A stretch of DNA of 64,000 bases, taken from contig NZ_CP125380.1 in NCBI RefSeq assembly GCF_034009455.1, positions 6,739,001 to 6,803,000 on the forward strand. The letters are read 5' to 3'. Shown here piece by piece: positions 28,070 through 40,269 of the stretch. This DNA is from Pseudomonas sp. P5_109 (lineage in GTDB: Bacteria; Pseudomonadota; Gammaproteobacteria; Pseudomonadales; Pseudomonadaceae). The notes under the pieces were generated by a model, which ran no database searches, was not told the DNA's origin, and worked only from the letters and a program-made list of their open reading frames with translations. Position 1 is the first letter of the stretch, and every line of letters starts with the position of its first letter. The translations under genes were made by a program, and so were the position numbers.

Positions 28070-28106
28070 GATCTGGGCAGACTCCTTTCTTCTGCACGAA
28101 AAAAGC

Positions 28107-28135
28107 AAAACCCCGCCAGAAAAAGGCGGGGTTTT
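28107..28135 (-). terminator. Intrinsic terminator in the rnk leader
   Basis: Perfect stem AAAACCCCGCC / GGCGGGGTTTT with a 7-base loop, followed on the minus strand by a run of six T. It lies 190 bp after the DUF1289 stop and 38 bp before the rnk start, so it could end the cyaY transcript or attenuate rnk. Confidence 0.85.
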
Positions 28136-28221
28136 CATAAGCCTCGATGGGTTGAGGCATTTCCGGACACTATCACAGCTCAAAAAATAAACAAGCTGGG
28201 CGATACAGCTTCCGCGCGGCC

Positions 28222-32177: not shown

Positions 32178-33077
32178 ATGGAACGGCAACTGGACGCTTA
32201 CTGCGAACACCTGCGCAGTGAGCGACAGGTGTCGCCGCACACGCTGTCGGCCTACCGCCGCGACCTTGATAAAGTGCTGGGCTGGTGCATCAAACAGAAC
32301 ATCGGCAGCTGGGCGGCGCTGGACATCCAGCGCCTGCGCAGCCTGATTGCCCGCCTGCATGCCCAGGGTCAGTCATCGCGCAGCCTGGCGCGATTGCTGT
32401 CGGCCGTTCGCGGGCTCTATCACTACCTGAACCGCGAAGGCCTGTGCGATCACGATCCGGCCAATGGCCTGGCGCCGCCCAAAGGCGAACGCCGCCTGCC
32501 GAAAACCCTCGATACCGACCGCGCGCTGCAATTGCTTGAAGGCGGCGTTGAAGATGACTTTCTGGCACGTCGGGACCAGGCGATTCTGGAGTTGTTCTAC
32601 TCCTCCGGGCTGCGCCTTTCGGAGCTGACAGGCCTCAATCTCGATCAACTCGACCTGGCAGACGGCATGGTCCAGGTGCTCGGCAAAGGCAGCAAGACCC
32701 GTCTGCTGCCGGTCGGGAAAAAAGCCCGCGAAGCCCTGGAACAGTGGCTGCCTCTGCGGGCCATGGCCAACCCGGCGGACGATGCGGTGTTTGTCAGCCA
32801 ACAAGGTCGACGCCTCGGCCCGCGGGCGATCCAGATCCGGGTCAAGGCTGCCGGCGAGCGCGAACTGGGACAGAACCTGCACCCGCACATGCTGCGGCAC
32901 TCCTTCGCCAGCCATTTGCTGGAGTCCTCCCAGGATCTGCGCGCGGTGCAGGAGCTGCTCGGGCACTCGGACATCAAGACCACACAGATCTACACCCACC
33001 TGGACTTCCAGCATCTGGCAACGGTCTACGATAGCGCCCACCCACGGGCCAAACGCATGAAAGGCGACGATTCATGA
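32178..33077 (+). CDS. xerC: Tyrosine recombinase XerC
   Basis: 299-residue site-specific recombinase that acts with XerD at dif to resolve chromosome dimers. N-terminal SAM-like core-binding domain (1-85) and C-terminal catalytic domain with the Arg in [13 protein letters not shown], Lys in [12 protein letters not shown], the HxxR box [10 protein letters not shown], a second His in [10 protein letters not shown] and the nucleophilic Tyr in QIYTHL. Known as sss in pseudomonads. Housekeeping gene, not a phage integrase. 2 bp after the DUF484 gene and overlapping the next by 4 bp. Confidence 0.95.
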
Positions 33078-37452: not shown

Positions 37453-37734
37453 CCTGTAGGAGCTGCCGAAGGCTGCGATCTTTTGATCCTAAGCCCCGCA
37501 AAAATCCCGGCAACGTCCTACAAACATCACACCGCCGTCCGATTGCGTCGCTAAGCCCCGGTTCCTAAGCTCATCTCGGCTGAATATTCAGCACTGGGTT
37601 TGGCGACCCGGATAGCATGTGACGCACCGCAACCACGTTCGATACTGGGCATTATTCCCTTCTCGAATTATGGCGGCTGGGCGTGGGAGACCTTCGGGTC
37701 TGCCGGTTTTTCGCATGCACCGGTTCGCCAACCC
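37453..37734 (+). repeat. Direct repeat copy 1: leader of the Bro-N gene
   Basis: About 280 bp that recur in the same orientation at 38559-38833 with many substitutions but almost no large gaps. The unit opens with the TGTAGGAGCTGCCG...GGCTGCGATC element known from pseudomonad intergenic regions, then the conserved GGTTCCTAAGCTCA, GGGTTTGGCGAC and ACCACGTTCGA blocks and ends in the C4-like RNA. Copy 1 is intact. Confidence 0.9.
37543..37571 (+). promoter_or_regulatory. Candidate sigma-70 promoter of the C4-like RNA
   Basis: TTGCGT, 17 bases, TAAGCT. The same hexamers and spacing are kept in the second copy (TTGCGC, 17, TAAGCT at 38642-38670) although the spacer differs, which supports function. 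The -10 box is poor. A perfect palindrome CTGAATATTCAG at 37580-37591 lies just downstream and is not kept in copy 2. Confidence 0.45.
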
Positions 37735-37747
37735 GCGCACAGCTGCC
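37672..37747 (+). ncRNA. C4-like antisense RNA upstream of the Bro-N gene
   Basis: The sequence folds into a three-way junction. Outer stem: GGCGGCTG (37672-37679) with CAGCTGCC (37740-37747), continued by 37681-37687 with 37732-37738. Hairpin one: AGACC-TTCG-GGTCT (37688-37701), a stable UUCG tetraloop. Hairpin two: CCGGT (37703-37707) with ACCGG (37719-37723). TTCGCCAA (37724-37731) is left single stranded. CTGCCG (37700-37705) and TCGCCAA (37725-37731) are complementary, in antisense order, to CGGCAG (37773-37778) and TTGGCGA (37759-37765) just before the next start codon. This is the layout of the C4 RNA family of phages P1/P7, which represses an antirepressor gene. The fold and pairing are seen; the family name is my inference. 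Confidence 0.7.
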
Positions 37748-37758
37748 ACCCTTTTCGT

Positions 37759-37778
37759 TTGGCGACGATCAGCGGCAG
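37759..37778 (+). promoter_or_regulatory. Predicted C4 target site
   Basis: TTGGCGA (37759-37765) and CGGCAG (37773-37778) are perfect complements of the two exposed parts of the RNA just upstream, in the right order. The site ends 8 bp before the ATG at 37787, covering its weak ribosome-binding region (GGCAG). A further TTGGCGA lies upstream of the RNA at 37600-37606, as P1 has targets on both sides of c4. Confidence 0.55.
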
Positions 37779-37786
37779 TTTCCTTC

Positions 37787-37906
37787 ATGCGAATTTGGGT
37801 ACTGCTCGATGGACGAAAATTATCTAATACCTCACGCCTTCACCCGCCACAAACTCCACCTCCACGCCCTCCTAATACAAAACCAACCCTGGTTCAGCGC
37901 CCGTGA
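37787..37906 (+). CDS. Short overlapping frame, possible icd-like leader of the Bro-N gene
   Basis: 39-codon frame (MRIWVLLDGRKLSNTSRLHP) starting 8 bp after the predicted C4 target and overlapping the first 98 bp of the Bro-N gene in another frame. In phage P1 the C4 RNA blocks translation of the short icd frame, to which translation of ant is coupled. The layout here is the same, but the peptide has no recognisable similarity and its start is not proven. Confidence 0.35.
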   Translation: MRIWVLLDGRKLSNTSRLHPPQTPPPRPPNTKPTLVQRP

Positions 37907-38330
37907 CCTCGGCCGCCTCCTGCGCCTCTACCTCGACGAACGCGCCGTCCGAAAACTCGATCCCGACCAATACCAAACAGCCAAAACCCTCATCCACGGT
38001 CACATCGAAAACATCCTGTTGATCAGCGAATCCGGCGTCTACACATTACTGGTCTACCACTACTGCCCCGAGTACCGAGCTCTGCGTGAATGGCTCACCC
38101 ACGAAGTCGTCCCCGCCCTGCGAGACGCCCTATACCCCACTACAATCGAACGCCCGCAACTGAGCCTGCTCAACTGGCCGGAAATGTCGTTGAGCCTGCT
38201 GCACTGGAACAACCAGTCGTGGATTCGGTTGCAGGATGTGCCGCAGATGCTGCCTGACCAGGAGACTTCAAGGCCTGCTATCAGTGCGCCTTGGTGGAAA
38301 AGAGCCGCAAAGATGCTTAACGCATTTTGA
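37809..38330 (+). CDS. Bro-N domain protein, phage antirepressor-like
   Basis: 173-residue protein with a Bro-N domain over residues 1 to about 110: WFSARDLGRLLRLYL, then LISESGVYTLLVYHYCPEYR and LREWLTHEVVPALRDALYP, the pattern of the N-terminal DNA-binding domain of phage antirepressors (P22 Ant, P1 Ant) and baculovirus BRO proteins. The rest (WPEMSLSLLHWNNQSWIRL) is unlike any C-terminal domain I know. No good ribosome site precedes the ATG, which fits translation coupled to the short frame at 37787. It is probably a domesticated or stranded phage regulator, controlled by the C4-like RNA. Confidence 0.75.
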   Translation: MDENYLIPHAFTRHKLHLHALLIQNQPWFSARDLGRLLRLYLDERAVRKLDPDQYQTAKTLIHGHIENILLISESGVYTLLVYHYCPEYRALREWLTHEVVPALRDALYPTTIERPQLSLLNWPEMSLSLLHWNNQSWIRLQDVPQMLPDQETSRPAISAPWWKRAAKMLNAF

Positions 38331-38558: not shown

Positions 38559-38833
38559 CCTGTAGGAATTGCCGCAGGCTACGGCATTCAAGCCCGCAAG
38601 AATCCCGGCAACTTCCTACGAAGATCTCATTCCCCGTCCGATTGCGCCGCAAAGCTCCGGTTCCTAAGCTCACTCCCAGTTAATTAGTCAGCAACGGGTT
38701 TGGCGACTCGAGCAGCACCCGACGCACCGTGACCACGTTCGAACCAGTGATTTATTCCTTTCTCGAATGATGGCCGTGCATGGAAAACCTTCGGGCCTGC
38801 CGGCATTTCCGCAGGCTCCGGTTCACCAATCCG
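38559..38833 (+). repeat. Direct repeat copy 2: decayed Bro-N leader
   Basis: Aligns along its whole length with 37453-37734. Shared blocks include GGTTCCTAAGCTCA, GGGTTTGGCGAC, GACGCACCG and ACCTTCGGG. No Bro-N gene follows; the similarity stops where the AT-rich cargo begins. Confidence 0.9.
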
Positions 38834-38836
38834 CTT
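38772..38836 (+). pseudogene. Decayed C4-like RNA copy
   Basis: Counterpart of the RNA at 37672. The TTCG loop and the CCGG/CCGG stem remain, but the first hairpin has lost pairs (AAACC/GGCCT), the outer stem has no partner and the antisense site reads TTCACCAA instead of TTCGCCAA. It should neither fold nor pair properly. Confidence 0.65.
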
Positions 38837-38936: not shown

Positions 38937-39383
38937 ATGAAAATATCCAAGTCTTTAATTGTCGCTTTCGCATTTACTGCATTTCACATAAGTTCAGCGG
39001 TTGCTGGGCCGCCTGTTACAGTCATATTCAAGAACCTTGGAACACAGACTGCTACGTATACTCCCATAACGAACAACGAAGCTATAACGAAAGCAAACGC
39101 ATCACCTACTCCACAAGCGTCCGTGACTGCAAAAAGCTCGGATACGTACGACATACAAAGCCAGATATCACCTAATTACAACCATGCTAATTTACGATAT
39201 CAAATCGGCAACAAGGAATGTGTTTATTTAGCGACATTTGTGACCACCCTTGGCTTTGGCGCAAGCAAAATTCCAAAATGGAATAATACGGCCACGCCTA
39301 GTGGTGGGGCGACCTGCACCATAAAAGTAACTAAAACAAATCCGTCCACCTATGCTTGGTCAGTAGTAATTACAATGAAGTAA
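38937..39383 (+). CDS. Secreted protein of unknown function
   Basis: 148 residues with a clear signal peptide (MKISKSLIVAFAFTAFHISSAVA, cleavage after AVA-G). The mature part is Thr/Asn-rich with alternating hydrophobic residues suggesting beta structure (VTVIFKNLGTQTATYTPI, then NLRYQIGNKECVYLATFV). Its two cysteines (in KECVY and GATCTI) could form a disulfide. AAGGAG lies 11 bp before the ATG. I do not recognise the family. Base and codon use are much more AT-rich than in neighbouring genes, a sign of transfer. A toxin, lectin or inhibitor is possible, but nothing proves it. Confidence 0.75.
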   Translation: MKISKSLIVAFAFTAFHISSAVAGPPVTVIFKNLGTQTATYTPITNNEAITKANASPTPQASVTAKSSDTYDIQSQISPNYNHANLRYQIGNKECVYLATFVTTLGFGASKIPKWNNTATPSGGATCTIKVTKTNPSTYAWSVVITMK

Positions 39384-39486
39384 AGTATGTAGCGGGCCTT
39401 AAGCGGCTTGTAAAATCTTGCTAAAGCATCAACAGTCATTAGGCAACCTATCATGTTTTAGTCATCGAACAGGGAGTGGCAACAAA

Positions 39487-40269
39487 ATGGTTAATTCACT
39501 AAACAATTTTTCAACTAGCAGCAGCCAAGCACCAGCTGAAACAAAAAAATTGACAGAGACTCCCGGCAAAAACCAAGGCGTGAGCCAAAATACACTCCAA
39601 GGCCCAATTGGCAACGCACTAGATAGTAGTACCGTTTCCACGCTAGCTAGCCAATTGAGCGAAGCCTCAGTACGTGCACAGGCCCGGGATGCACGCCTAA
39701 CTAGAACGGAACTGAGTGGGATGGCTAAAAACACATTCAACGAGTTGGACAGCGGTCATTATACTGGCAACAAATTAAAACACGACTCTGAAGTTCCCGA
39801 CACAGACAATGCCGAATTATTAGCGCGCGCCAAAAATGCGACAAAGTATACAAACGGGCTCGGAAAGAACCCGTTTTCGGGGATGCCCAGGGATCAGCTT
39901 GCTTTAATTACTTACGATGACAGCGGCACCTTTACCGTCAATGAAAGGCGGGCAGCATTGGAAGAATCAGCCAAGCAAGAATTTGCATGGCGACAGAAAG
40001 TGGTGGCCGAAGCAGAATATGAATATAACAGCACCGGAAAACTCACCAAATTCTTCCAAAGCGTCCTTGATCATTACAAGGAACTTCCCTTAGTTGAGCG
40101 AGCACAGTATCCCGATAACTATGAAACAAAACTGCAGGGGTGGATTGATTTGGACTTCAACTATTTCACGCATACTGCAGAAGGCAAAAACAAGTTGGAT
40201 ATCGAAAGCTTCTTAAGTAATGTGCTGACGGGCAGTAGTTTGTTTGACAACACGACATCTTCCAAATAA
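39487..40269 (+). CDS. Conserved Pseudomonas protein of unknown function
   Basis: 260 residues, no signal peptide or membrane segment. The first ~60 residues are Ser/Thr/Gln-rich and look disordered; the core runs from about 70 (ARDARLTRTELSGMAKNTFN) to 235, with DQLALITYDDSGTFTVNERR and a helical end. I have the impression that similar cores recur in uncharacterised Pseudomonas proteins, but I know no named domain. A Ser/Thr-rich disordered head resembles that of type III effectors; this is only a hint. GGGAG ribosome site upstream. AT-rich like the preceding gene. Confidence 0.7.
   Translation: MVNSLNNFSTSSSQAPAETKKLTETPGKNQGVSQNTLQGPIGNALDSSTVSTLASQLSEASVRAQARDARLTRTELSGMAKNTFNELDSGHYTGNKLKHDSEVPDTDNAELLARAKNATKYTNGLGKNPFSGMPRDQLALITYDDSGTFTVNERRAALEESAKQEFAWRQKVVAEAEYEYNSTGKLTKFFQSVLDHYKELPLVERAQYPDNYETKLQGWIDLDFNYFTHTAEGKNKLDIESFLSNVLTGSSLFDNTTSSK

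Follow-up and report, generated by a model that had tools for sequence, protein, structure and literature searches.

In phages P1 and P7, the C4 RNA folds with two exposed antisense segments; their target lies further downstream within the operon, at a ribosome-binding site ahead of an antirepressor-type gene (icd-ant) (PMC5320573, PMC12197685). A similar order of leader site, processed RNA of ~80 nucleotides (nt), downstream site and antirepressor or lysis-control gene is described for isrK-orf45/STnc1160-anrP of Gifsy-1 and seqA-CI RNA-seqC of P4, and IsrK was compared by its authors with P4 SeqA; in Gifsy-1, the ~80-nt RNA is processed out of a read-through transcript that short IsrK renders translationally active in trans (PMC4825925). 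C4 and isrK form one transcriptional unit in B. cenocepacia (PMC4603805), and an upstream leader was reported as the c4-a1b1 motif (Weinberg 2010, RF03163), for which the accessible text gives no gene families or codes (PMC2864571). A. baumannii AB5075 carries many chromosomal Group 1 C4-like small RNAs (sRNAs; 21 similar sequences) with a variable specificity loop and RNA-sequencing evidence of processing; the accessible parts of that report name no targets (PMC5320573). Here we report a C4 RNA together with its target upstream of bro-N, an antirepressor-like gene, in a 64,000-nt stretch of the Pseudomonas sp. P5_109 chromosome (the window; positions 6739001-6803000 of a single-contig 6.96-Mb genome). 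With good confidence we regard it as a domesticated, self-coded C4-type translational switch that lies in cis with its target and belongs to an array of such units in Pseudomonas.

The unit resembles P1/P7 in its C4 fold, its two antisense segments and the placing of target and gene, and Gifsy-1 and P4 in having a leader site and a downstream site around the RNA; we infer that C4 and STnc1160 belong to one kind of RNA. Unlike P1/P7, the Pseudomonas unit is chromosomal with no phage seen, lacks a conserved overlapping icd-like open reading frame (ORF) before bro-N, and has many paralogs with mostly separate pairing codes, most of them ahead of other gene families. Unlike Gifsy-1 and P4, the units of Pseudomonas lie in the chromosome and are coded locus by locus, and only a subset has a leader terminator. 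They share their number and their variable loop with the A. baumannii RNAs, and differ from these in having a coevolving target in cis; the upstream leader is shared with c4-a1b1.

The RNA was assigned to the C4 family (Rfam RF01695) by a covariance-model score above cut-off (Table 1), a three-way junction kept by compensatory change, and two segments, exposed in the fold, whose complements follow in antisense order in the presumed ribosome-binding region downstream: one at the junction (J) and one in the loop of hairpin 2 (L). Among 24 C4 sequences picked for diversity, the three-helix structure had 97.3% standard pairs and 17 of its 26 pairs showed changes on both sides, a result equalled by none of 500 shuffles on any of five measures; in helix 3, only one of four pairs changed on both sides. 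The initial annotation of this DNA had predicted a C4-like three-way-junction RNA with a UUCG hairpin, and both were borne out. Its outer stem of 8 base pairs was wrong, as this stem spans 17 positions, one of them unpaired here. The Rfam run and the search for covariation among homologues that it had proposed yielded a match and compensatory changes, and not the lack of both that it had named as refuting. Chance is excluded because of the Rfam score, the stem covariation and the permutation tests that compared each RNA with its own and with other loci's targets.

These tests were carried out over 28 loci of the own genome (leaving out a C4 relic at genome position 4766345) and over 108 loci, to which 129 records were reduced by removal of duplicates and of nhmmer matches covering fewer than about 76 model positions. 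Removed by coverage were, among others, the relic at 4766345, a relic in the window and L091; L087, L113 and L129 were put in by their Rfam places, and L058 and L065, missed by the hidden Markov model, were left out. The pairing of TCGCCAA with TTGGCGA, proposed in the initial annotation, proved right and corresponds to J and its downstream site. In contrast, its second contact, CTGCCG with CGGCAG, was rejected: five of the six bases of CTGCCG (37700-37705) lie inside stems of the C4 fold, and over the 108 loci the own match was no better than those of others (Z -2.1). The coevolving second contact, absent from that annotation, instead joins L to a site further downstream. RNAduplex combined the J and L contacts in antisense order at -21.2 kcal/mol. 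A target right before a start codon had also been claimed. An ATG does lie there, at 37787, yet the conserved start is the one at 37809; ATG 37787 recurs in just one of 22 other aligned bro-N loci (L148, of the same loop type), and the icd-like ORF of 39 amino acids that it opens was rejected as a real gene.

Coevolution was also seen among close relatives of the locus. The antirepressor-like nature of the downstream gene was confirmed by its Pfam match, and its best PHROGs matches are anti-repressors. Relatives were detected at E 1e-20 in 80 of 149 genomes of the genus sample, and 24 loci with at least 70% identity (L136-L159, the window included) were taken as orthologs; one match of 71% identity covering residues 47-172 only (G068) stands outside this set. 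A directly upstream C4 is kept in 23 of the 24. In these 23 aligned loci, J and its sites are nearly invariant, while L and its sites vary in concert through 12 distinct loops, with own-versus-other L matching significant both downstream (P 2e-5) and upstream (P 6e-5). The reading frame of bro-N is open over 169-173 amino acids in all 24 orthologs, of which three stop near the C-terminus of the match, and a median omega of 0.22 (simple counting method; 238 usable of 276 pairs) points to purifying selection. Profile searches of the neighbours identified a BMFP-domain gene 5' of bro-N, which we take to be ubiK, and an Mg-chelatase-like ATPase gene 3' of it, presumably comM; in the fetched flanks of the orthologs, ubiK stood upstream in 21 of 24 and comM was present in 16 of 24. 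The same place, after ubiK and before comM, in many Pseudomonas species fits the idea of a domesticated switch, and purifying selection on Bro-N together with this fixed chromosomal place therefore suggests that the switch now serves a host or resident regulatory role.

The C4 is preceded by a leader that duplicates both target sites. Promoter-like sites (TTGNNN-N15-19-TANNNT or NATNNT) occur in the corresponding region of 94 of 108 loci (23 of 28 in the own genome) versus a shuffled mean of 7.9, and a hairpin of at least 6 base pairs precedes the upstream site in 105 of 108. C4 and bro-N follow in this order behind a shared promoter-like site, an arrangement suggestive of one transcript. The window leader (37565-37614) matched c4-a1b1 below the cut-off of 46.7 (26.6 bits, E 3.3e-4); leaders of relatives exceeded the c4-a1b1 cut-off in 10 of 20 sources and that of the overlapping isrK model in 3 of 20. 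Mini-hairpin stems around J sites gave no clear signal of their own, as a mixed-locus control was nearly as high.

Table 1. Features of the bro-N C4 unit and of its degenerate copy (window coordinates).
Feature	Position	Strand	Evidence or remark
promoter-like site TTGCGT (37543-37548), 17-nt spacer, TAAGCT (37566-37571)	37543..37571	+	sequence
5' leader hairpin GCTGAATATTCAGC	37579..37592	+	just after promoter-like site
mini-hairpin CTGGG/CCCGG, loop showing upstream J site TTTGGCGA (37599-37606)	37594..37611	+	
upstream L site GCATGTGA	37615..37622	+	complementary to hairpin-2 loop, one G-U
C4 antisense RNA, three-way junction	37666..37753	+	Rfam RF01695, 80.2 bits vs cut-off 45
L, antisense segment in C4 hairpin-2 loop, TTCGCATG	37710..37717	+	permutation tests, bro-N ortholog alignment
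J, antisense segment at C4 junction, TTCGCCAA	37724..37731	+	permutation tests over 28 and 108 loci
downstream J target TTTGGCGA	37758..37765	+	complementary to TTCGCCAA; TTGGCGA part perfect
CGGCAG, second target proposed in the initial annotation	37773..37778	+	GGCAG-like in most loci seen, not a specific contact
downstream L target CATGCGAA	37786..37793	+	15 nt ahead of the bro-N ATG, in the presumed ribosome-binding region; contains ATG 37787
bro-N, antirepressor-like protein of 173 amino acids, presumed regulated gene	37809..38330	+	Pfam PF02498 Bro-N, 44 bits
degenerate second copy	38664..38834	+	leader-like 38664-38714 (14.8 bits, E 1.2), C4-like 38767-38834

Based on this arrangement, a single transcript would start just 5' of the leader hairpin and extend across leader, C4 and bro-N. 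C4 would adopt its three-way-junction fold and, if P1 and A. baumannii are a guide, be excised as an RNA of ~77-88 nt. The freed RNA would then pair in antisense order, J with TTTGGCGA and L with CATGCGAA, the latter being part of the presumed ribosome-binding region; Bro-N would thereby remain untranslated. The pairing is supported by coevolution, and repression would be its expected outcome. In most loci the leader, carrying both sites again, may bind C4 too. It could thus provide operon feedback or, released as an IsrK-like leader RNA, act as a decoy that frees the gene, an idea supported by Gifsy-1, where short IsrK in trans renders the read-through transcript translationally active (PMC4825925).

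As another role for the leader, C4 binding might favour a terminator before C4, making the leader a transcription attenuator with negative feedback of the P4 CI RNA/seqA type. A terminator-like GGCG..TTTTT site is indeed rightly placed in 26 of 108 loci versus a shuffled mean of 0.65, and in two phages as well. However, the pattern is present in just four of the 28 own-genome loci and in none of four bro-N cassettes tested, with a T-run seen by eye only in L157 among the 23 aligned loci. We therefore rejected attenuation as a general feature of the leader and consider this account rather doubtful.

The bro-N unit is not alone in its genome. While the initial annotation had pictured a possibly stranded relic, we found 29 C4 matches, 28 of them above cut-off, and just two Bro-N genes. 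By their coordinates, the 28 C4 precede 20 of 22 DUF6124 genes, three of five DUF3077 genes, this Bro-N gene and four small genes of no named family (profile search covered three of these), so that 23 of 28 stand before DUF6124 or DUF3077 genes rather than an antirepressor. HHalign indicates that DUF6124 and DUF3077 are related (probability 97%). The second Bro-N gene (genome 1276766-1277487, minus strand) has a divergent cassette below threshold, with c4-a1b1 (35.9 bits), isrK (37.3 bits) and C4 (37.1 bits) matches in a row, and its loop CCATGTTGA matches TCAACATGG both upstream and downstream. Nearly every C4 of the 108 loci has an adjoining matching target and gene. To judge from complementarity, most of the ~29 units appear to be tied to their own small gene through a private base-pairing code, although some codes are shared. 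Since the loci have their own J/L codes, the ~28 units should act largely independently at the level of complementarity.

Such units might also be type I toxin-antitoxin-like, with harmful small proteins and each C4 as RNA antitoxin. Small genes, a cis RNA repressor and many paralogs with mostly separate codes would suit this model, and in Gifsy-1 the toxic protein AntQ is under indirect control of the switch (PMC4825925). Against it, three genes of the own genome are open without a C4: two of DUF6124, one of which matches DUF3077 as well, and one of DUF3077. Among the DUF6124 and DUF3077 genes lacking a C4 are L130 and L132 (genome 1326641 and 1073450): at L130, a c4-a1b1 leader (52 bits) abuts the gene start almost directly, and L132 retains a leader scrap at most. 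Short membrane peptides are the usual form of type I toxins. The one DUF6124 protein modelled is a helical hairpin, for which a PDB fold search returned no significant match (best E 1.1). Five or six representatives of the small proteins had no significant PADLOC or NCBIfam match either (best E 0.03), and we judge the toxin-antitoxin model improbable. The DUF6124 gene without C4 near 4678326 (L131) adjoins a PrrF sRNA (RF00444, 159.5 bits).

Across the genus, C4 was present in 23 of 25 genomes with up to 42 copies, and its count tracked that of DUF6124 (Spearman 0.86). Outside the genus, two of 13 other genomes of the order had one C4 each, and neither DUF6124 nor DUF3077 was found in these 13; class-wide, 24 of 369 genomes had C4, with copy numbers being lower bounds, as at most 11 candidates were scored per genome. 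The same cassette of leader, C4 and target is borne by Pseudomonas phages and viral contigs, and in phiAH14b (L133) and vB_Pae_CF79a (L134) it is complete and followed by small open frames. A coding sequence annotated as hypothetical spans the C4 of phiAH14b.

These viral cassettes would be expected if the array served as chromosomal anti-phage immunity, silencing antirepressor or early genes of incoming phages with the same code, just as a P1 lysogen is protected by its C4 from superinfecting P1. In P1/P7, C4 is known to act in immunity (PMC12197685), and this role was proposed for A. baumannii C4 too (PMC5320573). However, just three of 20 distinct viral codes sampled match any own-genome C4, all via the copy at 279571, and the bro-N C4 matches none of the 20, a small sample drawn by one exact C4 pattern. 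Moreover, almost every C4 has its own adjoining matching target and gene. We thus hold immunity to be quite improbable.

Coevolution in the 23 bro-N loci has its limits: the own downstream L match ranked first in just 14 of them, and the upstream L match was poor (score at most 11) in eight. A degenerate leader/C4 duplicate lies 1.1 kb 3' of the intact C4, by eye without target or bro-N after it; its C4-like part reached 26.4 bits with nhmmer and 20.5 bits (E 0.61, below cut-off) with Rfam C4. In addition, the C4 relic at 4766345 scored 34.3 bits, and a few cassettes look broken. That the unit is a decaying phage remnant without function, as these relics might indicate, is nevertheless contradicted by the compensatory changes, the bro-N frame open in 24 of 24 orthologs and an omega of about 0.22, and deserves next to no credence. 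The claim of a C4-type antisense RNA with a cis target before an antirepressor-like gene is supported by the fold and by coevolving complementarity.

The surroundings of bro-N also comprise ammonium transporter, DUF484, HAD hydrolase, LysR and MatE genes. The initial annotation had seen no phage genes nearby. Indeed, the 14 proteins scanned in the 29-46 kb region of the window include no phage structural gene or module, and with the ORF at 37787 unconserved, the locus does not qualify as a P1-type immI operon; the one exception is a tyrosine recombinase gene at 32178, flanked by DUF484 and HAD genes, which matches integrase families. From its gene neighbourhood, we take this recombinase to be chromosomal xerC. 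Two genes between bro-N and comM (38937-39383 and 39484-40269) had no Pfam or PHROGs match, and the former has, by eye, a signal-peptide-like start. A Pseudomonas rnk leader (RF01772, 78.9 bits) lies at 28099-28204 on the minus strand.

Other Bro-N genes of the genus, more distantly related (about 42-60% identity), sit behind a separate RNA family, sRNA-Xcc1 (RF02221). Of the first six such loci examined, just three matched the sRNA-Xcc1 model; conversely, each of the eight above-cut-off matches across the genus sample directly precedes a Bro-N match. The own genome has no sRNA-Xcc1 match at E 0.001, and the unit described here is not assigned to this family. In the sRNA-Xcc1 loci (L162, L164, L165, L224-L230, L232), leader, RNA and target are ordered as in C4 cassettes. 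With 11 of 12 loci parsed (L231 left out) and seven distinct loops, exact permutations of loops against own sites gave P 4e-4 downstream and 8e-4 upstream, with rank 1 in four of seven each. Weak spots are the downstream sites in L228 and L232 and the downstream J sites in L226, L230 and L232. The common layout and the coevolving loop suggest that sRNA-Xcc1, too, is a C4-like cis antisense switch. In Xanthomonas integrons, symE lies downstream of sRNA-Xcc1 (PMC12444791), and the accessible texts name no cis target of this kind (PMC2996969, PMC12444791).

Open-licence full-text literature yielded no paper on C4 with DUF6124 or DUF3077 or on a coded Pseudomonas array, a weak negative with subscription papers and supplements outside its scope. 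Switches of this architecture have been described in phages; what appears to be new is the coded array with its gene families. As a bolder extension that we deem unlikely, tens of phage-derived, mutually near-orthogonal self-coded switches of Pseudomonas might silence a small-protein superfamily until a matching leader or phage RNA absorbs the C4, with C4 and sRNA-Xcc1 as two scaffolds of one class; if true, this class would serve as a code-reading alarm or a social or defence repertoire.

Chromosomal C4 RNAs in numbers were previously known without targets from the accessible account of A. baumannii (PMC5320573); nearly all of those studied here in Pseudomonas have adjoining matching targets and genes. 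With an adjacent target that matches and coevolves, what chromosomal C4 RNAs regulate therefore becomes directly testable in Pseudomonas. The loci offer dozens of RNA-RNA codes that arose by natural evolution and are largely separate. They also point to a possible cis target and mechanism for sRNA-Xcc1 and place DUF6124 and DUF3077 in a regulatory context.
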